Shown here one piece after another: positions 1 through 64,000 of a stretch of 64,000 nt of DNA. Positions within the stretch are counted from its first letter, which is position 1, and each line of letters begins with the position of its first letter. The position numbers and the translations under genes were made by a program. The DNA comes from Phoenix dactylifera (taxonomy: Eukaryota; Streptophyta; Magnoliopsida; Arecales; Arecaceae): the NCBI RefSeq assembly GCF_009389715.1, contig NW_024068188.1, forward strand, positions 124,001 to 188,000, given 5' to 3'. The notes beneath the pieces were generated by a model, which saw only the letters and a program-made list of their open reading frames with translations, did not search any database and was not told where the DNA came from.

Positions 1-317
1 TCTTAATTTTAAATATTTTTAGTCAATATCGATAACAATAACCGTGATAAAAAAAATATTTATGATATGAGATGTTAATAAATTAGAATCTCACATATGT
101 GCAACACACTAAAAGCTACAAGACGAGGCCCATAAAATATACTTGATGATGGGAAATTGGAAAAAAAAAATGCAAAAAGTCGAGCTATATGAGAACAGCA
201 TGCATATAATCAATTCAAGATGAAATGCCAAGAGTTAAGAGAAAAAATGTTTTTTAAGAGAAAGTGAAGCCAAACTTGGATAGAGTTGCTGCCCATTCTT
301 ATTATAATATAATATTA
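1..317. other. AT-rich flank without a recognisable gene
   Basis: AT-rich non-coding sequence to the left of the Mutator-like element. I see no coding potential and no repeat that I recognise. Confidence 0.5.
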
Positions 318-326
318 TTATTTTTA

Positions 327-548
327 GGGTTTTTTGCATGGATATCCTTCTAAATATCAGATTTTGCATGAATACCCTTTCAAAATTGATATTTGCATAT
401 ATACCCTTATAAAACTTTGTTATTATACAAATACCCTTAATATAACGGTTGTTCTAACGGTGTTAAAAAAAATCATATTTATATTAATTAAAAATAAAAT
501 TAAAATTTGAAATTATATTATTATCCTTACTCTTTTTTTCTCCCTGCT
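327..548 (+). repeat. Left terminal inverted repeat of the MULE
   Basis: About 220 bp pairing with the right repeat. Its outer 130 bp is built from about four degenerate 29-31-bp subrepeats, each with a core like GCATGAATACCCTTCTAAA, starting near 336, 366, 395 and 426. The inner part includes an AACGGTTGTTCTAACGGTG segment and an AT-rich stretch. Confidence 0.88.
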
Positions 549-961
549 TCACATTCCTCGCAGGAAAAAATGGCTTTGTGTCGCACTTGGTTATCGATTC
601 CCTGCGCACCTCGCAGCCCTCCCGCTCCCTACAAAAACCCTCCCACGCCCCCACCCTTCACCCTCACTTCCTCTGGCCTCTCCCACCCCCACATCAAGTC
701 ACTCTTTTCTTCTCTCTCCGCACACAGCACACGACAGAAAAGAGAAGAAAAGCTATATTGTTCTTCCAATCGCGTGATCCCACATAGCAACCTATCTAAA
801 CCTTTTTAGCACCTAGAGAATCTCATCTGCTGCGTACCCTCTGCCTGCTTCTAATCCAAATGGCCGTTCCTCATTCACCCCCATACGTTTCCTCGATCGC
901 CCTTTTAACACGAATTCCCAGGAGATAATCGTTTCAGCCGTTTCGGAATCGAACACAACGA

Positions 962-1637
962 ATGGCCTCCTCCGATACCGAAACCAGCTGCAGGAACTCA
1001 ATGCCATGCTCATGGTCGTCCAATTCCTCGCCGTCACCGTCTCCGAAGAAGAGAGGTTTGACGGGCGGCGGGGGGAAGCAGGCGCGGGACGGGAGCAAGC
1101 ACCCGGTGTACCGCAGCGTGCGGAAGCGGGCATGGGGGAAGGGGGTGTCGGAGATCCGGGAGCCCCGTAAGAAGTCGCGCATCTGACTCGGGACCTTTCC
1201 GGCGCCGGAGATGGCTGCGCGGGCCCACGACGTGGCGGCGCTTAGCGTGAAGGGCGCCGCTGCCGTCCTCAACTTCCCCGACCTCGCCGCCTCCCTCCCC
1301 TGCCCCGCCACCCTCTCCCCTCGCGACGTACAGGCCGCCGCCGCCCGCGCCGCCGCCATGGACCTGCCCTCCGCCACCCACCCCACCCATCCTGACGAGT
1401 CCTCCGACGACCTGGGGGAGATCGTGGAGCTGCCGCGACTCGGGGAGGACCTCTTTGACTCAGCCAAGTCGCTGCGATTTCGTGCTCCACGACTTGCCGG
1501 ACCCGTGGGCGTACTCGCCGCCGTGGATGGCGGGTGCCGACGAGTACGACCTCTTCTCCGACCACGCGTGGATGGCGGGTGGACCGCCGGAGGAAAATTT
1601 TCCCACCGGCCTCGAAGCTCTCTTGTGCGACCACTAA
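962..1637 (+). pseudogene. DREB-subfamily AP2/ERF transcription factor pseudogene, intronless
   Basis: The translation has a basic and Ser-rich N-terminus, then an AP2/ERF domain beginning [15 protein letters not shown] and the DREB-type strand [13 protein letters not shown]. It continues with the helix region [15 protein letters not shown] and the [11 protein letters not shown] extension typical of A-4/TINY-like DREBs. An acidic C-terminal part closes with a PPW segment and EALLCDH. Functional relatives bind DRE/CRT promoter elements in stress responses. This copy looks dead. The codon expected to be Trp in the WLGTF motif is TGA at 1184-1186, in the same frame as the rest of the AP2 domain. 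A frameshift near 1455-1470 moves the C-terminal part to another frame, which ends at TAA 1635-1637. The second Trp of the GKW motif is Gly. It sits wholly inside the MULE. DREB genes are normally intronless, so lack of introns does not distinguish DNA capture from retrocopying; a promoter-like leader upstream favours DNA capture. Confidence 0.85.
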
Positions 1638-1777
1638 GAACCCAGAAAATGTTTTCTTCTCTTCTTCTCTGTTCCCATTCACTTAATTTCTACTTAACTA
1701 TGTGGGTTTGCTTACGAGACCATTAGCCCTAATTCAATTGTGCGGTGTTCGTTTTTAAAGGGCAAGAGAGGGGAGGA

Positions 1778-1998
1778 GAGAAGAAGAAGAAAGGGTAAGG
1801 ATAATAACGTCATTTTAAATTTTAATTTTATTTTTAATTAATATAAATATAATTTTTTTAACACCGTTAGAACAACCGTTATATTAGGGATATTTGTACA
1901 ATAACAGAGTTTTATAAGGGTATACATGCAAATATCAATTTTAGAAGGGTATTCACGCAAAATCTGATATTTAGAAGGGTATTCATGCAAAAAAACCC
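1778..1998 (-). repeat. Right terminal inverted repeat of the MULE
   Basis: The reverse complement matches the left repeat nearly base for base, including the same periodic TACCCTT subrepeats and the AACGGTTGTTCTAACGGTG core. It ends at 1998, directly before the second copy of the 9-bp target duplication at 1999-2007. Confidence 0.88.
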
Positions 1999-2209
1999 TT
2001 ATTTTTATAATAATACGAGGTGTTTGGTATTGGGTCATCATCAAGAGTAACCAAAACTAAACTTTCTCATTAAGCAGATAAAAAATCAGGTTATTCTGGG
2101 AATATAGCATGGCTTGAATCAAATTAAACAGGTTAAAGGGCTAAACATTGCCACCGTGCCACCCCAATCAAGCATTATTCTGAGAACAATTTTAGTAAAT
2201 CAAGTTAAT

Positions 2210-2422: not shown

Positions 2423-5400
2423 ATGACCACCACCGCCAGATCAGCCCGAACCCACCACCCAGCTCCGCCGACTCTCACCGCCGACGACATCGTCCGCCTC
2501 GCCGAGGATCCATTCGCCACCCTCCCCTCCTCCGCCTCTCCCTCTGCCCTCCTCTCCCTCCTCGACTCCCCCTCCCCCTCTCCCTCCGTTCCCGTCACCA
2601 CCTACCTCTCCTCCCTCCTCTCCCTCCTCTCCCGATCCCCTCCACGCGCTTCCCTCCTCTCCTCCCTCCTTCTCTCCTCCCTCCGTCTCTTCCTCTCCTG
2701 CCGCCTCCCCCACGGCCCCGACACCGCCCTCGTCTTCCACCTCTTCTCCCCCCTCCTCCCCAACCTCGACCCTTCCGACCTCCCCTCCCTCCTCGACCTC
2801 ATCGCCTTCCACCTCTCCGACATCGCCGACCCCGACGACGCCCAGCCCCTCGACCTCCTCCCCCGCCTCCTCGACCTCGCCATCGATGCCTCCGGAGAAG
2901 AATCCATCGTCCCGATCCTCGAGAGATTCCTCGCCACCGATTGGTCCAAGGCCCTGTTGGTAAAGATCGTCTCCCTCCTCCGCGATTTCCCGGCGCTTTC
3001 TAGGGTTAGTGTTCTGGATTTCGTCGAGAAGGTATTCGGAGGAATGAAGGCGGTGGACCTCCAGGATCTGCCGTCCCTTGTCTACCAGCTCCTTCTCCTC
3101 GCTTCCAAGGGGATCAACAAGAGGGCGGTGATTGGAGGGATTTTAGGGTTTTTTGGTGGGTCCCTAACGGGGCCGGCTTCGATTGTGCGGCAGGTGGAGG
3201 GGACGGTTTTGATGCATGTGAACTTCGCCGTGAAGCAGGACCCTTCCTTGGGGCAGGAGGTGCTGGCCATTGTTCGATCCGATCGTGGTGTGCTTAACCA
3301 CTTCGCGGTCGCCATCCTGCTGTCGGTAGCCAGGGTGCGACGATTCAATGAGAGGTCTATTGGTGTTTTGAGGTCAGCGGTGGTGACCTCTCACCGCGAC
3401 TATAAGCTCTCATGGTGAGGATTCTTTCCAATCAGCGACATTTCTCTCTTCAAAAATATGATTGTGATTTGTTTTGTTGTGTTTGATTAAAAGGTTGAAA
3501 CTTGTAGGAATTGCAAGTGGTTGCCTGATGATGTGAAAGAGGAATGCCTGGAGACTGCTAAATGTGTGGAGAAAGCATTGATAAAAGCTGTAACTTTCTT
3601 TGCACTCAGCTTCTTATTTTTCCTTATGTTTGAATTATTGCACCCGCTCATACTAGTTGAATTCATCATCAAGCATAATCGAGGCACTTCACTATTTTGT
3701 AGGTGAATGAGAGCAACTATGGACGGGAGCATGTTGTACCCAGCACTGTTCAGTTTGGCTTTGTTTTGCTGGAATCAATAGATAGTGGGAGTGGAGAAGT
3801 TGGTGGTTCTAGAGGTTTGATGAGCATGGAAGAGCTCGGCATTCAAATACTAAAGACACTTTTTGAGGTCCATGACATGGCAAGAAACGAGGTTTGTTTG
3901 GTTGGAACTTGTACAATTCCATTAGCTTTATGAACTGTATGGAACCATGGTTTACTTTGTCAGTGATTATTATTTAAGCCTTTTATCGCTCATTGCCAAA
4001 TTTAAAATGAAAGGAAAAGGAACTGGAAAATAGATAGCAATCAATGCAGCGGTTTTTTTTTCATGGTTATTGTGCTTTGCCCCATTTATGTATCATGCCT
4101 TGTTCCTTCTTTCTTTTTTGATATTGTCATGAAGTGCAGCCTCTCAATATTTTCTATTAAGGATTTGATTTCCCCCGAGCTGCAGATAATTGAGCAGTGC
4201 AAATTTCGGATTCTTTCTTTGAAGCCTCATGAGAGCATGCCGATCATCAAGTATTTAAGCAGTTTGATTATAATTTTTTTGAGCACTTTTCTTACAATCT
4301 GATACATATTAATACAATCTTTATGTGAATCTTGTAATAGGTTATTTGGTCATCTGGTTCAAAGCTACCCTTACCCTATGCTAGATTACATTGCTCACCT
4401 GAAAGAATTACTGGACTATTTCTCTTTCATGAATGATGTAACTTCCGTTGCTCTCGTTGATGCCATCTTGCCACTGATCAAGTTCAGCCGCGATCTCCAG
4501 GTGTTGGTTCTCAAACTATCTCACTATGCAGTAATCTTTCAATACTCCAAGTGCTGTTATGATGCTGTTGATGAATATCTGCAGGATTACGTTGTTTTGG
4601 TTGTAAGAAAGGCCATGTTCAAACGAGAAGATTCAGTTCGTATAGCTGCTACTAATGTTATCATTGAATTAATTTTAATGGAAAACAGATCTAAGAAAGA
4701 TGGTATAAATTCTTTACAAGAGTCATCCAGCCAAGCAAGTTGCAGCCAGCAAGCTATATCCTGTGGGCTGGGCAGAGGTCTCTTTCAAGAACTCAGTGGA
4801 TTGCTTCAGAGATGTCTTTCACAACAGGTGCTTTTCAGGCACTTATAGTCATGAAAATTTCACTTTTTCCCCAGCTTTAACAAGTCTTTTGATAGCAGTT
4901 GCTTGCTTTAGACAGGCTAGAGTTAAAGAAATCATGTACCATGGTCTCATTAAACTTGTTGTGTTAGACCCGTTTGTTCCTACCTCTGTCTTGGATTTTC
5001 TCTGGCCTCACTTTCTTCACTTTTACAAAGAGGTATTTTATCTTTTGCCTCATCCTTTTGATTTTTATCTGTAGTTTGCAAAAGTTGCATATTAGCTGTT
5101 ATTTCTTTTGTGTTGTCTTCAGGATCATGTAAAAATTCATGAAACCATCAAATATAATCCTTAAGGAATTACGTCATAACATTGTTGGCATATTTTGGAC
5201 AAATTCTTTTTGCAGGATGCAGACTCTCCCCTTAGAGTTGATGCATGCTTTAAGTTGGAGAGTGGAAAAATTTGTCTGGTAGAACCTTTGGACTATCTTT
5301 TATCGTGTGTCTCTTGGATTCTTCTTCTTCAGCCACATGATAAATCTGACCATCCATCAGAGTATTCTTGGCCATGTTTTGACTTCTCCCCTTCACAAGA

Positions 5401-35220: not shown

Positions 35221-38200
35221 ATGGTAACATCGTTCTCTTTCCCCAAACACGGAACCCTAACCTTTTCTCTCTCTCTTCTCTGTCTCTTCTTATCCCTTGC
35301 TTTCTTCCTTCTTCGTTCGTCGCAGGGTATCGATCTCATCGCCGGCGGCAGGAGCAAGAAGGCTAGGCGCACTGCGCCAAAGTCCGACGATGTCTACCTC
35401 AAGCTCCTCGTCAAGGTGAGCTCAGCTCTGAACGTGTCCGTTTGCAGTGGATCTGGTCTTTACGCCATCTTTTAGATTGCATTTGATGGAATTATTGAGC
35501 CGATGGATACGTTTGTTTGCTCTCTTTGATCAGTTGTATAGGTTTCTGGTGCGAAGGACGGGGAGCAAGTTCAATGCGGTGATCCTTAAACGGCTCTTTA
35601 TGAGCAAGATCAACAGGCCCCCCATCTCCCTCAAAAGGCTCGTCACCTTTATGCAAGGAAAGGTTGGTCTCCACTGATTTCCCGTATTTATAGTTTTTGT
35701 TATTTGATAAAACAAAAGTTTTGATTTTTAGATGGGTGGATTTTTACTGGTAGTGTTATTACTTTGAATCAGGACGATAAGATTGCAGTGATTGTTGGTA
35801 CGGTGACAGATGATAAGAGGGTTTACGAGGTCCCGGCCATGAAGGTGACTGCTTTAAGGTTTACGGAGACGGCTAGGGCAAGGATCCTCAAGGCTGGAGG
35901 AGAATGTTTGACCTTTGATCAGCTTGCCCTCCAATCTCCTCTTGGGCAGAACACGGTATATACTATATTGCACGCTTCCTGTACATGCGCTTTTCCTTTT
36001 GATTTAATTGGAGAAAGGAAGAAAAATGGTTGCTTTGTTTGTTATTCGGCTTGTAAGATGGGTTTAATTGTTCTACTAGCCTGAACCTATATACTGTTTG
36101 AGTGAGGTATAAGAACGATACAATTGTATCTACAAAGCACTAGAGAAACATGCAAACGATTGAAAATTTTGGCTATATTTAGATGTGGATATTTGCAATT
36201 TCAAGGTGATAATCTGCAATTCTATTACTAGCTTCTGGGTTATGAGGATTTTTGCTTATTCTGGACTTGGTTTGGCCGTGTGGTCTTCTCCAAATTTTTC
36301 AATATCTTCTTTTGAGCCTATATGCACACACATCTACCACCTCAAAAAATGTATTCTTTTTAATTCTTTGGCTTTCTGCAATCACATTATTGCCATGTTC
36401 CAAGATCGAGTCTTAATGGTGGTTGCTGTCTTTTTATGTGACTTACCTTTCAACACTAGCTAGATTGTTGAAGCAGTGAAGATATTGCTCTTTAAAACCC
36501 AGCTCATTATGAGGTCTTCCATCCATTGGAAGGTCAAGGAACAGAGTTCATATTGATATCTGAGATTAACACAAAGTCGAGAAATTTTATTCGTTTTTCT
36601 TTACTTGATGTTTATTTTGGTTTGATTCCCTATGATGTTTGTCTAAGCCATGCTAATGCTGATGTGCATTGATGAACTCATTAAATGTTATACTGAGGGA
36701 ATCACTCCTTTATTTTCAGTTGCGTGATTTGGATTGCCATTTAAAGAAAATTTTGCTGTTCTTATTAATAATATTTTGGAATAAATGCATGATCCACAAT
36801 GCTGAAGAAAAGCACAGTCGAAGTCGTCATGTGTCTTTTTGATCAGTCTAGACTAGTTGAGTCAAGACTGCTTATATTGGTTTGATGTTTGATTGCTACG
36901 AATGCATTATACATTTTTAGACTAAACTGATCAATTGGATGGCTCTTAGATTCTCAGCAGTACGGTTGACTTACATCCCTTGGTCTATGATGAATATTGA
37001 ATATCTGTCCTTAAAATGAGGAGAATGGACATTCAAATATCTTTGGATTCCATAATCAGGATTTCTGTTTCTTAGATGCCCAACCTCACTTGATAGTATA
37101 TGTTTCAGCTTAATCTGCCGTCTTTACATGAAATGTTGCCGACTGTTGATCTTGCTAATTTTATTCCTTAATGTCTTTCAAATGTTTCCCCCCAAGCCTT
37201 ACTCCTGAAGCTTATGATACTTCAGGCTATAATAATTGAAGCAATGATGATATTGTTTTAATCCCAGCTCATTATGAGAACTTCCATCTAATGGAATGTC
37301 AAGGAATGGATACCAAAACATTATCTGAGCTAAATGCCTCATTCCTTCTAGCATTTATTTTTTGTTGTATTTTTCTGTTTATTTGCATCTGCTAGAGATA
37401 ATTTTATTTAAATTAACTTAGCTCTTGTGGGTTTTGGATGACTCTTCCCATATTCTGATCTAAAAGAACTGTATGCTTTTTTAGCGTGGCTGGTCTTTCG
37501 ATTTATTCTTTCTTCAAAGTGACTCTCGAGTTTTATTAATTTATTGTTTTGGATGACTTTCAAGTTTTTGTAGTATTTCTTTCTGATTCTTTTTCTATCT
37601 TGTGAAATCTGATTCTTGATTATTCCTTCGCCTTCAAGCTTAAAATTTTGGACGAAACTGATGTTTGGTTTAGCTGATCTTGGAGAGATCAATATATGAT
37701 AGTATATATAATCAATAAAAAATATCAATAATTCTATATTTGTCACTTCATTTTCTATAACAAACACTATAATTTCTGGTATAACTAAGTATAACATAGG
37801 CACGAGGCAGCATTTCTTTTATCAAAATATGTTGGGAGGGGCTTTGCTTTTCAGGTTTTTACTTGATGCTTGAATGTACTGTTGCTGCAGTCATGCTTCA
37901 TACCGAATATATTTGATCTCTTAAGACTTGCTTTAGTTCTCGTTAAATGGCTACCAAATATGATGGTCGTAGATGACCGTCGACTATTAGTGCTGCAGTA
38001 AGGAAGATTGCTGGACGGCAGCATTTTGTCAAGACTTGCATGTTTCTAACAGTTGCATGAAATTACAGGTTCTCCTCAGGGGTCCAAAGAATGCTAGGGA
38101 AGCTGTGAAGCACTTCGGTAAAGCTCCAGGAGTTCCACACAGCCATACTAAGCCTTATGTCCGTTCCAAGGGAAGAAAATTTGAGAAGGCCAGAGGAAGA

Positions 38201-50763: not shown

Positions 50764-53700
50764 AACATGCACAATCTCTGCATGCAAAGACAAGGATAAT
50801 GGAACATTTTAGGTCCACTTTAACCCTAACTAGATTCGCATTTGGACTTGGATCTCCGAATGGAAAAACTTAGGACAATTAACCATTTTAGGTCCACTTT
50901 AACCCTATCTAGCTTTGCACTTGGGCTTGGACTCAGACCAGAATGATTTACTTTCAGGCTTTATATTATGTTTGGATCAAATCTGAGTTTTATAAGCCAA
51001 AACCTAGTCAGATATTCTCACAAAGTACCACCAAGCACTTGCTTGGATGGTATTACCCCTTGTCCTCTGAATCAAAATGGACCCAAACCAGAATAATTTA
51101 CTTTCTGTTTTTATATTTTGTTTGGGTCTAATCTGAGTTTTATAAGCTAAAACCTAGTCAGATATTCTCACCAAGTATCACCAAGTGCTTACTTGGATGG
51201 TATTGCCACTCAAAGCAAGAGGTCACAGGTTCAATTCAGAGTAAGGTCAGTCCTCACATCTACTCTCGGTTAGCAAAGCCTAGTTCCTTGCGCTTCGACC
51301 AGTCTGCCCAATGGCTTAAGCTCTGGTCTAAGGTGGGATGGGGTGGGTATAGTGCAGCAGATGGGGTTAGAACTCAAGAAGAAGATGAAGGCCGAAACCA
51401 TAGGCCTGGTTCCATGAGCCAAGACCATATACATCCCAACTCATTAGACTCCGAACAAACATTCCAAACCAGCAAATTAAGACCATAATCAAATGCAGAT
51501 CATATCAGAAATACTGCATTACTACTTTGTTAGAATTTAGAAAAAAAGGATTACGTCATTTTTTGCCTTATGCCCTGATTGTCACAATTAGGCCTTGCTA
51601 TATGACTGAGCATCCAGATCTGAATTGCATTTTGCCAGCACGTTTGCATCAAATCGATCTATTCTCAATATGCCAGATATAAAAATTTTGAACATGGATT
51701 ATCGTATAGTTGGAAATGACACTCCTCAATTTTATATAACTGTATGATAAAATTGATTTAGAGAAGATGATTGAAAATTTTGTTATTTTAGAATTTGATT
51801 AATATTGCAAATCAGAGGAAATCTGATCTGCCTCAAAGTCAGGATTATGAGTTTTATTGTTTTTTCACAATATTTCCATCATGATAGCAACAACAAACAT
51901 GAGAATGTATTTACATAAGAACATTGGTAATGACACGAACTGTATGATAAAACTAATTTAGAGAATTTTGCTGAAAATTTTCTGATTCTAGAGTTTGATT
52001 AATATGGCAGATCAGAGAAAATCTGATATGCCTCAAAGTCAGGATTATAATTTTTTATTATTTATTATTTATTTCACAATATTTCCATCAGGAGAGAAAT
52101 AACAAACATGAGAATGTATTTACATAAGAATATTTCTCAATTCTCAAACATAACAAATGCTGAAGGATATCAACAGGGGTACCTTACATCCATATGCAAA
52201 TGTACATAAACCATTTTGATTCCACCGTTCTTTTTTGCATCAGTACAAACTAAAAAACGAACTAAATGAAATGCAGGCTCTATGATTGCTATGCACACCT
52301 CATAGTTGCATGCTGTTCTTAACTATACGTAGAATGTCTAATCCTCACCAAAATCCTGTAACACCATTTATTGGCTCCTGAATGTTTGAATATCGGAAAA
52401 AATTAGTCCAATCCCATTTCCTTTACTCTGCCAAGTCTTTTAGACCCAGTACCCCTTTACCAAGAACAATAGCTTCATCATTTGTTGAATATAACAGCAT
52501 AATTCTAGTAGCTTAAAAAAAAAAAAGTTCTAGTTTTCCTCTTCTAACTGTTCCTTCATAGTGTTTTTTATACATCGACTTAAACACCCTCATTTTTACT
52601 ATCATATTTGAGGCCCCATGTTGCCCAATCATCAAGTCATTACAAAGCATGCAGCCTAATAATTTTTAATAAACATAACAGAAATAAATGATTGGTATTA
52701 AACTACTTTAATTGGAAGGATGAACTTGGTTCATCTGAAGTTTAAAGAAACTTTTCCTGGAAAAAATATTGAAAATATCGTGCTTTATAGGTCACATAAT
52801 TCAGTCACACTACTAGTTTGGGTAGACAAAAGGTTGCAGTAAACTTACAAGTCTAAACACCGATAATAGTTCAGTCCTCCTGTAAAACCAGTCTTCTCAA
52901 ATTTGCTAGCATAATATTTGATGTCATCTTTCGAGAGCCAAGAAGGCAATGGGATTTCAGTGTCAGGGGAACCCCATCCTTCCTTGGGGATAAAAAGGGG
53001 ATCTGGAGAGTGATATGTGTAAAACTTTTCGAGAACCAATGCTGTACCAAGACGCGCAAATTCTGCTTCTGCTGCTCCAGGTTCCTACCGCATTCAAAAA
53101 TGTTAATTAAGAGACAGTTGGAAACTCTTTGGTACTTAGAGCCAATCAATGTCATCTGGTAAGAAGAAATTATTATGTCATTGGTTTCTGGATATATAAT
53201 ACAAGCCATTGACATTGTTCATGAATTAGTTAAGGGTTTCCAGAGAGAAAAAAGCCATTCAATATATTCCATGGATATTGTCATTTTTGAGAAGAATACA
53301 AATAATGTCAAATCTGACAATGTCATTTAAGAGCATGCTATTTAGAACAACATAAGAGCATTGCAATGGAGAAAAAAGGTCGCGAAAAATAAGACCAACA
53401 GATATCTCCCCAACAAGCTTCCGCTCCATGTACTATAGATAAAACTTCATGGCAGCAAATCATTGTACTAGGCCAAGATCAAAATATTGGCCTTTGAAAC
53501 CTTTTTTTATGAGAACTTTCAAAATTGGTTCACTGTATATATCATGACAATCCAGTAGCATGCAAACTTATAAGAGGGTTTCCAGTGAATTGTAAAGATC
53601 GATCTCTTAAAATGCAATTGCCATTTTAAACATAAATGAATTGAGCAGCTAAAATATTAAAATTTTGAAATGTGATTAAAAAAAACCCTTATCTAAAAGA

Positions 53701-55707: not shown

Positions 55708-57804
55708 TTCATCTAAAGCCAAATAAAAAAATTAAAAAAAAAAAAGGAACAAACTCTTAATTTCCGCCCAATATTGTAGAGCAAAAGTGACGACATGGCC
55801 GGCAATACTATTTATCTTTTGATAGACATAAATAATTCAAAAAGGGCTTAGCAAAATCTCCTTCCAAGTAGATATTGTCCGTACCCAGAATAAGCATTGT
55901 ATAGGTGATGCTCTTCCACGCAGTTCTTAGCTCTGCTCCCATGATAGCCACGTCGAATATGCATCATCCTCCAACTACGACAAGTTTGGAGTCGTGATCT
56001 CTGATCGCAAAGCCCATTCTTCTTCTACCTACACCGTCAAACATACTACCATCAAAGCTCATCTTAAAAAAGCTAGGGATCTTAAGAAAGCTAGGAGATA
56101 GGAGCTCATAGGAAACAATAGTCGCTTCAAGATCTATATATACAAATGGATGAATAATAAAATTGAAGTGATTTAAGGGCTGTGCAAAGTGATGATATCT
56201 CGAAAAAAATATCAATTATTCTCTCGTGCCAAAGATCTAGCCCGAACCTTGAAGGCACAAGTACGGATAACATTGAATCGAATTGGAGAAGATATTAAGG
56301 AGGGGACGCTGCACGCTGCTAGAGGGTTTGTTATAGGAATGGATAGCTAAGATAAAAGGCCGTGCTTTGTTCCCATCGGCATCGTTCTTGGCTTTCCGGA
56401 TGAGCAAGGCAAGAATAGAATATTCGGGGGAGCTTGGAACCGAAGCTGGATAGCGTGATTTCTTTCATTGCGAATCTAATCGGTTCAGCCTAGTTTGTTG
56501 GAATATTAGACAGGGAGACAAGGCCGCCAAGGACCGTTTGCTGGAAAAAAATTTAGGACGTGGCAACAATGAACAAGTAGTTCCCAAATAACTAAATTCT
56601 TTTCCTGAAAAAAAAGATAAAACAGTCTCAAACAGCTCATCCAATGGGAAAGGTCTTGCAGTCACACGTCCGGCTTCAAATCATCATATCAAGAGGAAAA
56701 AGAATGAAAATCCTCTAATGTGTCCATCTTCCTTTCCCTTTACTACATCTCATATAATTATCTGCCTTTTTGACTTTCTCTCTTTTATCTAAAACTTTTA
56801 GTCCTGTTTTTGTTTTTAATAACGATTATACTCAATTACCTTACATACGGTTTTCGTATCAGTGGACACTTGAGAGCAAGTTATACACAAGTTGGTGAAA
56901 AATGGACGTAAAGATACAAATTTATGGATTGTATGTAACTGTGCCACCTTAACACGATTGCTACGACTAAAACTTTTTTCAAAGAAAAAGAAAGGAAAAG
57001 GAGTAAACCATAGGTATATGGGTGATCTTGCCCATAGACAGGATTTGAGATAAATAACCATTGGATTATACACAGTTTTACATCCTATACATAGCTGCTA
57101 TAATTTTATACACACAAAAAAAATGTACAAGTTGTGAACCAAATTTATACATAATTTGGCAGAAGAGACGTGCTGGGATTACATTTCAAACTAGGAGATA
57201 AGTCCTTTCCGCTATGATTATATATGACAAATCCTAACCCAACTAGAGATTGAGAGGTAAATACAATTTGTTTGATTGAGAAACCAAGACTCTAGAAGTA
57301 TTGGATTCTATCTCTTCTAATACAACTTTATCAATTCTTCTCCACCTCCTTTTTCCCTTTTTATGAGGTCTCAACTTTCCAACAGTTGTTCTCACAACTC
57401 ATATACATTGCACATGTCGAGACCTAAAAATAAATAATTGTAGTTAAGAGTAATGCAAATATTCTAGAGCTTGGCCTATTTCATTAGATATGCCATTGAT
57501 AATCATTCAACATTCAACATTTCTCTTGAGAAAAATATTTTGACTAGAGGATAAGCTTGATAGCTGCAGTTATCCATGATGAAAACCACATAGGCTATTG
57601 AGTAAGTCTAGCAATCTTCTAAATTGCAAAGTGCATAATGATGCGTACAAGCCAAGCCATGTCAGCTATCAATGAGGGCCCATGCATGAAAAAGTGCCAG
57701 CTTGTGCATGCCATGCACTTAGCATTGCTTCGAAGAAGGAATAAAAAAAAGAAGGATTAAATAAATTTTTATAGGGACCAATGATGATACAGATACCACT
57801 GGAT

Positions 57805-57841
<37 letters not shown>

Positions 57842-57853
57842 ATACCACTGGAT

Positions 57854-57922
<69 letters not shown>

Positions 57923-58360: not shown

Positions 58361-60284
58361 GATTGATTACATGTGACACATGATGGCATCTCTGAGTAGG
58401 GCACTCCCTGCAGCCTGCACACTTGTGAAACGGTAGCAGAATTGGGGTGGCCTAATCTGTGATGGCAGAGGACACTTGAGTTTGGTGAAGCCTGTAGTAC
58501 TGTTGTAGAGGCAGTGAAAGGTTTTGTGGTCATTGTGGAAGATGAAATGGAGTAGAGACCATCAGTACACTGATCCTGAAACAGTGTCTGCCCTGTTTTC
58601 TTGTCCTTAATTACACATCCACCCGAGTCGAAAATGACAACACAATCATTATCAACAGCTAATTTATGTACTGACAGAAGACTGTGTGAAATTTGTGGTG
58701 AATGAAGCAATTTAGAGGGGCGAAAACTATGAGAGTCAGTAGTAATCGTACCAGAACTGGAATGGGTAATTGGAATCGAATTGCCATCACCTACTGAAAT
58801 CTGATTTGTACCGAGGAATGGTGATGCATTGTGAAGAGCAGCAGGGTCAGCTGTAATGTGGGAAGATGCTCCACTGTCGATGATCCAGTTTCTTGTTTGT
58901 GTGGAGGGAGGTGCTGTAAACAGCGCCTGATGGTTTGTATCTGGAGGGGAATACTGAGCATTTGGGTATAGGTGGAACCAGCAATTTGCAGCTGAGTGCC
59001 CTGTCTTCTTGCAGATTTGACACTCGATGAAGTTTGAGTTGTTACGCCCGGACCGCCCACTTCCTTGCCATCCTCTTTCCTGCCATCTGCCTCTATTTTG
59101 GTCATAGGACCATCGTCTACGTCCTCGAGGGAATTGGTTTCTTGATCGGCCCCTTCCACGGACAGCAGAGAGAGCAAAAGACAATGCTGTACTGGAATGC
59201 TGTGAGTCTTTGTTAAGCAGGATAATTTCCTCACTGTTCAATAATGCATAAAATTCATCTAGTGGGAGAGAGGAGGATCTAATTCGGATAGCAGTAGAAA
59301 GGCGTCGTAGGCTGGTGGAAGACCAATTAGAATGTAGAGGATTATATCTTCTGATTCCATTGTGGAACCGGCTGCTCCCAAGGTATCTACCTTTATCTTG
59401 ATCTCTCCCAGATATTGTTGCATGGATTTGTCATCCTTTTTCAAATTGTGGAGCTCATTCTTAATTTGAATGACGTGTGATTTGGAGGCAGAGTTTAGCC
59501 TTGTTTCTAAAGCAGACCAAATTTGAAAGCTATGGTCTAAGTTTACTACATGGTGTAGAATAGCAGGAGAAATTGTTGAATTAAGAGCAGTGGCTAAGAA
59601 CTGATCAGTCAGAAGCCAATTATCATATTCTTCTGAGCTGCTGGAAGGGCCTGAGGGAGGTTTATATACAATTGATCCATCGAGGAAAGCGAAAAAACCT
59701 GATGCTCGAAATACCCAGAAGATCTGCGATTTCCATGTAAGGTAGTTGTCTGATGCAAGTTGAATGGAAACAAGAGATGTGATTCTTGTAACCAGGAACT
59801 TGAGTTTTGGAGAGAATATCGAGTCGGATGAGTGTTGAACTTCATCTGATCGAACTGCACTTACTGAATTCGGGGATGTCATTGACTCTTCTGCAGTATC
59901 TGCCGCTGAGAGTAGTTACTTGGGGTGGGATATAGAGATTCGAGTGATAGTTGGGAAGAAGGAGGGTGGGAAGTTGATAGAAGGGAGGACCGCCTGCTCT
60001 GATACCATAAAGGGATTCTCAGAACGTATAGAACATAGAAGAGCTGAGAGGAAAAGAAAATTGATGTATTAGGCTTCTCTCACTAAAACATTACATTCCT
60101 CTCACTGGCGCGGCACAAGCTACAGTGCTCGGCTACAGTGCCGTACTTCAGTAAAAAATTAAACAATGCTTACAGAAATCAAGTATTTATAGACTTGTGA
60201 AGAGTTGCCCTGCTAAGTCTTGCTCTGAAAGAAACCTGGTAGCTTGCAGGGGAAGAAGACGAGCTTGGTATCTTGCTGGGGAAG

Positions 60285-60383
60285 AAGAAAAAGCCAGTTG
60301 TGGTGGAGTGCCAGCTGCCCAGCTGAGTAGAGAATTCTAGAATCGATCTTCAGCCGGTTATGTTGCTGAGATGATGATAGTTG
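60285..60383 (+). repeat. Inverted repeat arm at the 5' side of the copia fossil
   Basis: Partner of the arm at 58265-58360 in opposite orientation. A genuine LTR pair would be direct, so this arrangement implies rearrangement. Confidence 0.85.
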
Positions 60384-60389
60384 ATAGGT

Positions 60390-61690
60390 TTGATTTGTAA
60401 TTACCACCTAGCTAGCTAAAGTGCTAGAAAGCTATCTAATGGATAAAGCTGTAGATAAGGATCAAATTTTATGATGGAAAAGGGCTATTAGTGTAACCCA
60501 ACCACCTCTTCTATAAAGGAGGTCCTAAAGAAAAATGGGCTTTCTAGTATATCCTTAGATGCATAAATGAAAATGAAAAGAAGAGACCAAGAGGAGAAAA
60601 AGGAGAGAGGGGTTTAGAGTCTGGTGCTCCTTTGAAGCCCATTCTTTCTTTCTTGTCAAATGCCTATCAAAAAAATTAGGGTTAGGTTTTTAATAGAAAG
60701 AGGAGAAGGCAGGTGAAAAGGGAGATGGTTAAGCTTTAGAATGGCTCAAGAAAGGTATAGTTTCCTTAAGAGTATTCCAAATTTTAGCCTACTTATAAAA
60801 GCTTTCTTCTATGATTTTTTTTCTTAGATTTTGGAAGAGGAAAGAGGGTTTTATAGTGAGAGATGAGGGATTTTAATATTAAGATTTAATGACCATATGG
60901 TTGTCCTAAATTTCATGTCTAGGAGAGGGAGATTGAGTGACTTAATCCTAGAGCCTAAGAGATTGAGAAAAAATTGATGAGATAGCGCAAATGAAGGATT
61001 GAGATGATAAGAGAATATATTTCTATGGATTGTGTTCCTTTGGAGGGATAGAATTGTATAGAGAGGCGAAGAATTGGTTTCAGGGCTATAATAAAATCAT
61101 AAGAGATTTCAAGGTTAATGAATTTGAGATGGCATGGTTTCATTGCATAAGAGATATAAAGAGAGGATTGAAAATGTAGAAGGTGGAGATATAAGAAGGG
61201 TGGGTTTGTTTAATCATGTTTCTTTGGAATGCTAGTATTAGAGTAAAGAGAAGAATGTTAGGATTAGGGGAGTGATGAGGAGGTGAGCTAGATGGAGGAA
61301 TTTGATTGGATCCTACCCTCCTCCAAGCATTGGTGATGTAGAGGTCGATGGATGGTTGCAATGTTATAGAAGAAGGGAGTGTCATCTAATTGTATAACTT
61401 GATGGTAGTATTGATGTGAATGCTATTAGATTTAGGAGTAAGATTTAGGGTTACTTGATTTTTTTGGGAAGGATAAGAGGACCAAACATAGCATACCAAT
61501 ATTAATTAGGAAATGCATGTCAAGGATTTGGAATCTAAATCGATAACATTAGTTACGAGAAAAAATCTTAGTCATTTAGTGGAACAAGGATTCAATGTGA
61601 CAAGAGAAGTGTAAGGAAGAAATTAAATTAGTTAGAAGGAATAATGATGTCAAGACCTCTCAGGATGCTACTTGGTAAGTCATCCAATGA
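60390..61690. other. AT-rich non-coding stretch
   Basis: Purine-rich and AT-rich sequence between the copia fossil and the LTR-like region. I see no gene and no clear element ends. Confidence 0.4.
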
Positions 61691-61699
61691 GAGAGAAGG

Positions 61700-63440
61700 A
61701 TGTGGGTTAAGATGACTGTTCGTCCGATTCCTGTTTACCTAAAAATATGCTAAACAGATCGTTGTTAGAACCGACAAACAAAATTTAAATTAATTTTTAC
61801 TCTTACCTTTCCTACTCGAAGAATAGCGGTTGTAAGAGGTCGATCCATAGGGAGGCGAGTGGAGTTGCTTAAAAATAAAAACGTTCACTCGAATTAAAAA
61901 TCAATTTTTGATTAATAGAAGAAAAACATTACGTTGGGGATGTTGACGGATTCTCTGGTCTACCGGAGAATATTTTCTACTTGAAATTAACAGAAAGACA
62001 GGTACTTAAATTCGAAAAGCATTTATATATTTAATGGAAAAGAAAGCTCTGGCATAAAATGGATAAAAACCGTGCTAGGACTATTGAAGACCAGAACATC
62101 GATTGCATGAAATAAATTTTAATGTATTGCATAAAAAAAAAGAAAGATTACAGAATTTGAAGAACGGAAATTAAAAACAACAGAAATTACAACTTTAGCA
62201 TAAATAAAACTCTCTATTAAAATAAAACTAAAAACCCCAAAACATCTTGCTCTCAATTAAAATAAGACTAAAAATAAAACAGAAAGCTAAAACTAAAAAT
62301 AAAATAAAATAAAAACACAATGCTCTGCTTTGGCGATCGTGATGGTTCTTCTTCCCTTGTTTCTTGGCCAACCGAGCATACCTCCTCCTCCTGGGACCCG
62401 CCGGCCACCACCCAGCCAAGCTCCTTCCTCCTCCCCTCTTCTTCTCTGTTCTCTCCTTTATATAGATCTCCCCTATCCCTTGAAACCGGCGGTGGATCTC
62501 CTGATGGAGGGGTAACGGACGCGAGTCTTGTGCGATTTGCTGACACGGGAGGGCTGAAGAAGATGGCTGGATCGGTGGAGCTGGCCGCAGGATTGCTTGG
62601 AGGAAAACATGGATCCGCCACAGAGATGGCTGGGATCACGGCTTGCAATCGGATGGTAGATGCTTGATTGCGGATGGTTGTGAATGCGGACGGAAACGGG
62701 GGTCTTCCGAGAGGCTGGGAATCATGGATTAGCGTCCGCATCACGGGCGCAAGCAGAGGCGGAGGAAGGGGAGACGCGGGCTGAGGCGCTGGGGATCCGG
62801 CGGAGCTAGCACGGGTGCTTGGCTCGGATCTGTGAGGCGGAATGGCTGGGATTTGCTGCTTTTGAAACGGGCGGAAGAAATGGGAGCGGACGTCGGATGC
62901 TACTATCACGGGGACGCGTTGAAATGAATGCCAACGGGAAGGAGGGGCTGGCCGCTGGGATCGTCCGGCTTGGATCACGAGAGAGGGGGACGGTGTGGGC
63001 GGACGCTGGGAGGAGGCGTTGATGAATCGGAAGGAGGGATCTGCGGGATGGATGCTTCACGGATGGAAGAAGATGGATCCTCTTCTTTGGCCTACGGACG
63101 AATGCGAAATCCGTGATGAACGCGGACAGGCGTTGGAGACGCACTGGGGACTCCCGTGATCGCACGGAATGGGGCGCACGTGGGATGCTATGAGGATCTG
63201 GAAGCTTGGAGCTGGGGAGGATGGGCGACCGCGATGCACTGCGGGAGGCTAAGTGGCTGAGAAGGAAATGATCGCGGGGCCTTGATGCGGGACTGATTTG
63301 GAAGGTGATCTGATGGATGGTGCGGGATTTCATGCTTGCATGGCAGCTGGAGAATTTGTTGAGCTTGAGCTGCCGGGCATTGGGCTCAAACCCAATGTTA
63401 TTGGGTCTCTTGGACTCCTTGCACTCAAACACAAATACAA
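61700..63440 (-). mobile_element. LTR-like or retroelement-derived segment, unclassified
   Basis: On the minus strand a GC-rich stretch (about 63,430-62,470) leads to a TATA motif CTATATAAA at 62465-62457. A purine-rich leader (GAGAGAACAGAGAAGAAG) and then a long T-rich stretch follow. Promoter inside a GC-rich block followed by a T-rich tail is the layout of a plant retrotransposon LTR. Two overlapping Pro/Ser/Arg-rich open frames in the GC-rich part look compositional, not coding. No protein domain, primer site or second LTR is visible, so the family is unknown. Confidence 0.35.
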
Positions 63441-64000
63441 TGTTAATTAATTAATTTTATCATTAAAGATTAACTATAATACTAATTAAGGTGGTACGAT
63501 GATTGCACTTTTGTGCTCTCATCAATGACTATGGTTTTATCATAGTGCGTTCTTCTGGGAATACACTTATGATAAAAAGGATATGGTGAGGATATCAAGA
63601 GGTCCAATAATATATAGACTTAGCCCAATTTTATATTTGATTTCTGAAGGGTTTAATTTGGAATATATGTATAGATTTGGAGGCTAATTAGGCTTATGTG
63701 CCCTCAAATCGGATAAATTGGATTAGGGAGGATGAGTAGGCTTAAAGAGGGGTTGGTTTGGTTGGGCAAAACTTTGATTAAGTATGATTAAATATAATTG
63801 GGTTTGATTAGGTATGGGATATACTCAAAAAAGTTAACTTCACTAGATTTGTTTAGGATAGTGTTGATTTGGTTGGCTAAATTTGGGATTGGGCTGGATC
63901 ACATTAACCGAGATTTGGGTTGGATGGATTGAGATTTAGGTCGGATAGGCTAGAGTTTTTTGCCGCTATGTAAGGAAGTTACTCCTTTTATAGCTGGAAG
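63441..64000. other. Window edge, no recognised feature
   Basis: AT-rich sequence with repeated GGGTTTGATTAGG-like phrases. No gene seen. Confidence 0.4.

Follow-up and report, generated by a model that had tools for sequence, protein, structure and literature searches.

Pack-MULEs, the gene-capturing elements of the Mutator type, are best known from rice, where they are reportedly the subject of Jiang et al. 2004. The locus considered here lies near the left end of a 64,000-nucleotide stretch of the Phoenix dactylifera genome (hereafter the window; C541:124001-188000), in which a DREB-like gene, of a stress-type regulator, is enclosed between long inverted repeats, and it raises the question of whether such an element captured and moved this gene, where the gene came from, and what has become of it since. 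The reading that we regard as highly probable is that of a non-autonomous TIR-MULE belonging to the Pack-MULEs, with a history of DREB-type gene capture and subsequent transposition. The features of the locus are collected in Table 1.

Table 1. Features of the element and its right-hand neighbour, in window coordinates
Feature	Positions	Strand	Basis
Left target-site duplication (TSD), TTATTTTTA	318-326	.	Exact match to 1999-2007
Left terminal inverted repeat (TIR), ~212 bp, starts GGGTTTTTTGCATG	327-538	+	91.0% identical to reverse complement of 1787-1998
Captured segment of the host (DREB-like gene and its 5' and 3' flanks); edges approximate	547-1786	+	Homology to C11 and C4
Disrupted DREB/AP2 coding region; ATG at 962, last piece ends ALLCDH	962-1637	+	Frames and alignment with the intact 226-aa ORF of C11
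Right TIR	1787-1998	-	Inverted copy of 327-538
Right TSD, TTATTTTTA	1999-2007	.	Exact match to 318-326
FANCI gene, first part; start codon read from ORF	2423-3418	+	Pfam FANCI_S1 4.1e-17, FANCI_HD1 2.2e-16

Several other features were observed further along the window. A cluster of C/D-box snoRNAs, comprising two snoR69Y and one snoR53Y above the Rfam gathering scores, occupies 36466-36571, 36625-36703 and 37234-37335. A 150-bp tandem repeat of 1.8 copies lies at 50928-51204, a CT microsatellite with an exact 49-bp duplication at 57790-57915, and in the last segment, 60001-64000, the GC skew stands out from that of the remaining window, at 0.33 and 0.25 in 2-kb windows.

Ends of the element and their family

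The element spans 327-1998. Inverted ends of about 220 bp had been claimed from the letters alone, and BLAST recovered them as a pair aligned over 212 columns at 91.0% identity with 294 bits, whereas 100 shuffles of both ends under a first-order Markov model reached at most 26.5 bits. The exact 9-bp flanking duplication, also claimed, is present as TTATTTTTA in all nine positions on either side, and no other of the 1,444 local left/right pairs of 9-mers matches exactly; among 103,986 wider pairs, 2 do. Since the 9-mer is AT-rich and occurs five times on the plus strand of the window, the evidence for a TSD lies in its exact position at both TIR ends. Duplications of about 9 bp accompany related insertions as well, being exact (9/9) on C64 and 8/9 on C600 and, where the boundary was picked by eye, on C6. 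TIR-MULEs are defined in the excerpt of PMC3903597 by TIRs of 100-500 bp with high similarity. Compared with that excerpt, the window element has TIRs of a size and similarity within the given range and differs in no structural respect; its transposase would be one of the MURA type.

The searches covered the window's own genome, 773,078,369 bases in 2,391 contigs. The left TIR has at least 42 matches (40 scored of 2,666 first-look candidates), two of which are the element's own ends. Copies of the TIRs with other cargo, which the sequence-only reading had proposed as support, do exist: in two elements that were read, C64:64300-66000 and C600:45450-47100, the TIR pairs are those of the window element, with about 90-91% identity to its left TIR, and they enclose one and the same GC-rich, non-DREB sequence in opposite orientations. 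This interior is itself high-copy, with at least 43 matches (40 scored of 189 candidates), and it shows only that the window's TIRs also enclose other sequence.

A source of transposase was sought with PF10551, which has at least 150 matches in the genome, from 452 candidates. Compared by eye, none of the 150 PF10551 places listed is near any of the 42 TIR places listed, and among these matches no transposase-bearing element with the window's TIRs was found. One copy of a high-copy MULE transposase element with its own inverted repeats, L058, was read and matches the window TIRs at best with E 0.12. It was rejected as the autonomous partner, as its ends differ from those of the window element.

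The cargo and its parent-like gene

The claim that the cargo is a host AP2/ERF gene is borne out by window 605-1706, which is 92% identical to an AP2 gene at C11:13502589-13503699. This parent-like gene is an intact, single open reading frame of 226 aa whose protein scores 57.4 bits against Pfam AP2 (cut-off 33.3), with ERF096 as the closest solved structure (1.6e-19) and no match in NCBIfam. No match to the TIR was found in the 9 kb read around it. The intact parent elsewhere that was to be looked for is therefore present as a copy of the parental type that lacks MULE ends. As to subgroup, we take V14 and E19 of the AP2 domain to be the rule that separates DREB from ERF, and by eye the residues of the C11 protein (KWVSEIREP) look right for DREB. 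A second intact gene of 226 aa, on C4, is a diverged paralogue at 81%. The C11 region recurs on C2324 and C544, collinear over about 7.1 kb at 97%, with broken reading frames; many of the differences are gaps and may be assembly noise, so that these two are not counted as separate genes and the intact parent-like frame rests on C11.

Beyond the stretch of 92% identity, the alignment to both C4 and C11 continues on the 5' side over window 545-604, and that to C4 on the 3' side over window 1707-1786, none of 200 shuffles reaching any of these three scores; the capture therefore runs nearly from TIR to TIR. No alignment of 1707-1786 to C11 was found, and 141 of 200 shuffles reach that score. Either this captured 3' flank later disappeared from C11, or the capture drew on a gene closely related to C11 that has since vanished; because C11 is without the flank, the true donor could be such a lost relative.

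The sequence-only reading called the captured gene nearly whole, and this holds for its extent and fails for its coding capacity. A TGA stands at 1184-1186, inside the AP2 domain, where C11 reads TGG, and in the alignment with C11 a 5-bp gap between 1470 and 1471 shifts the frame. The open pieces reach at most 14.1 bits with Pfam AP2, against the cut-off of 33.3. The window's DREB gene is a decayed pseudogene.

Sister insertions and the order of events

Sister copies with the DREB cargo, a further check that had been proposed, were found on C6, C33 and C17, where the cargo is joined to the window's TIRs. The pairs of loci that were compared match over the element only. Two more contigs are second versions of the C17 site, C1611 matching it at 98.4% over 5.1 kb and C800 matching the right half at 99.3% over 5.5 kb; both were counted with C17, which gives four independent insertions, namely those of the window, C6, C33 and C17. 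A tree of window 605-1387 unites all Pack copies with 98% ultrafast bootstrap and the three sister copies, which share a deletion, with 100%; the window copy is sister to these three, on a branch of its own of 0.022. The same unit, with long TIRs, an exact 9-bp TSD in the window and a host gene as cargo, is thus present at four independent sites as one clade. Since the four insertions at unrelated sites share their cargo and form a single clade, they are most simply explained by one capture and later transposition.

The deletion shared by the copies on C6, C33 and C17 has the junction GACGACCATTAGCC and removes approximately the last third of the coding region. On C33 (C33:1161123-1165012, reverse strand), an open frame of 158 aa scores 48.6 bits with AP2 and lacks the C-terminal region. 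The TSDs of the C33 and C17 insertions are obscured by poly-A flanks. On C17 and C1611 the cargo ends at window 1387; the remainder on C17 lies about 49 kb away, at C17:1138298-1138403 (the locus of the split element being C17:1138298-1188174). The sequence CCACC at both junctions of the split, together with TG...CA ends, fits an insertion of one or more nested LTR retroelements.

No sign of retained function was seen in the captured gene. The private coding changes of the four insertions, counted up to window position 1387, number 33 nonsynonymous and 13 synonymous, close to the neutral expectation of 2.63:1 computed from the C11 ORF, and give no sign of selection on the four inserted cargoes. 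On the C11 side, over the same positions, there are 4 nonsynonymous and 7 synonymous changes (Fisher p = 0.038), a small count into which changes on the stem of the Pack clade also enter. Taken over its entire coding region, the window copy has 8 private nonsynonymous changes, one of them the stop, and 2 synonymous ones.

Capture followed by transposition has to be weighed against two other accounts. The flanking repeats might be unrelated local duplications, or a pair of independent MITE-like insertions, that came by chance to surround a duplicated DREB gene, and the great abundance of TIR-like sequences in this genome speaks in that direction; given the exact 9-bp TSD at the outer edges of the repeats, such a coincidence is scarcely credible, and it is already contradicted by the recurrence of the joined TIR and cargo unit, with shared junctions, at independent sites. 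The mRNA of an intronless DREB gene might otherwise have been reverse-transcribed into an existing MULE, which then carried the gene and did not capture it. The C11 gene is a single ORF, so that intron loss is uninformative on RNA versus DNA copying; however, the homology nearly reaches both TIRs, extending ~360-400 bp 5' of the ATG and ~145 bp 3' of the coding end, and the window sequence shows no poly-A tract where the capture ends on the 3' side; a retrocopy is accordingly very improbable. Within this genome, neither of the circumstances that were to contradict capture by a Pack-MULE was encountered, namely the DREB gene at the same place without flanking repeats, or repeats that are unrelated local duplications.

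In the favoured reading of capture and transposition, the ancestor of the C11 gene would have served an ancestral MULE as the source of about 1.2 kb of DREB-type sequence, comprising the coding region and its 5' and 3' flanks, and the resulting TIR-DREB chimera would later have been moved to new sites by a transposase of the MURA type; we infer both steps. One branch would have retained the full cargo and led to the window copy, while another, which spread to C6, C33 and C17, would have lost roughly the final third of the coding region. No longer under constraint, the captured gene would then have decayed, and the window copy would have landed upstream of FANCI, at a locus of which the C173 version lacks it.

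KI-MULEs carry a ULP-like protease, which is kept as an element gene. The window element is like them in being a MULE with a long host-derived coding sequence, but whereas the KI-MULE gene is retained, all signs in the window copy are of decay. The excerpts of PMC8277862 and PMC13317346 mention KI-MULEs with this protease, and they describe the Pack-MULEs of rice. The window element shares with the rice elements the MULE ends and the 9-bp TSD around a duplicated segment of a host gene, and an unlinked donor without MULE ends, and its family likewise has several copies at different insertion sites. Compared with the duplicated-region size of 305 bp given for Pack-MULEs in the excerpt of PMC8277862, the capture in the window is large, at about 1.2 kb, and takes in the whole ancestral coding region. 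In a literature search at title level, no title describes the DREB element of the window. The element is a true Pack-MULE, of a kind that is already known, with a cargo that is unusually complete and a history that is readable.

The FANCI locus and what the element may mean

The FANCI start codon follows the element at a distance of about 415 bp, and the cargo is on the same strand as FANCI. A search with the FANCI first-exon region gave two strong matches, C541 and C173, and 41 others that are weak, at 111 bits or less; as the two strong matches, these contigs are probably two haplotypes of the FANCI locus. Window 1-309, in the left flank, and the sequence from window 2001 onwards, in the right, both match C173, in an alignment that extends about 4 kb to the left and about 3 kb to the right. 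Between the two versions there are 17 mismatches in ~3,000 aligned bases of the right flank (~0.6%) and 66 in ~4,010 of the left (~1.6%). The search for an empty site, which had been suggested as a check in related genomes, thus yielded an element-free version of the locus here, on C173, but not a clean site: the junction reads CCCATTCTTATTATAATACGAGG, is without TTATTTTTA, and falls 25 bp short of the length predicted for the site before insertion. The 6-bp sequence ATAATA is common to both sides of this junction.

As to the history of the two alleles, we lean towards a loss of the element on C173 after its insertion, by deletion or excision through the 6-bp ATAATA homology, and not towards a C173 that kept the original site. 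The missing TTATTTTTA and the shortened junction argue for such a loss, and so does the comparison of the window copy's own branch (0.022) with the flank mismatches; as the branch exceeds the mismatch level, the element looks older than the split between C541 and C173. Against this, the site is AT-rich and slippage could have altered its length, 20 of the 40 private changes of the window copy are C>T or G>A, which may mean that its rate is raised, and the donor of the window copy may be unsampled.

Possible effects on the host can be considered in trans and in cis. If the former held, the deleted branch would spread a protein with the DREB DNA-binding domain and no C-terminal region, which could compete with the real factor, and copies with inverted ends could yield small RNAs against the parent. 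If the latter held, the window copy would place the promoter leader of a DREB-type gene in front of FANCI in one of the two versions of the locus. That the MULE lineage acts in trans on its donor, or supplies in cis a DREB-type leader at FANCI, has a slim chance of being correct; what speaks for an effect on the expression of DREB or FANCI is anatomical.

In this palm, the donor-like gene, a paralogue, a copy with the full cargo, deleted copies and an element-free version are all present in one genome, and because all these copies are readable there, the course of events can be traced from capture through transposition and internal deletion to decay. The captured copy also preserves flanking sequence that the present C11 gene does not have. 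Two questions are thereby opened to testing: whether a large, GC-rich gene captured together with its leader has any expression, and whether FANCI expression differs between the versions of the locus on account of the upstream insertion.
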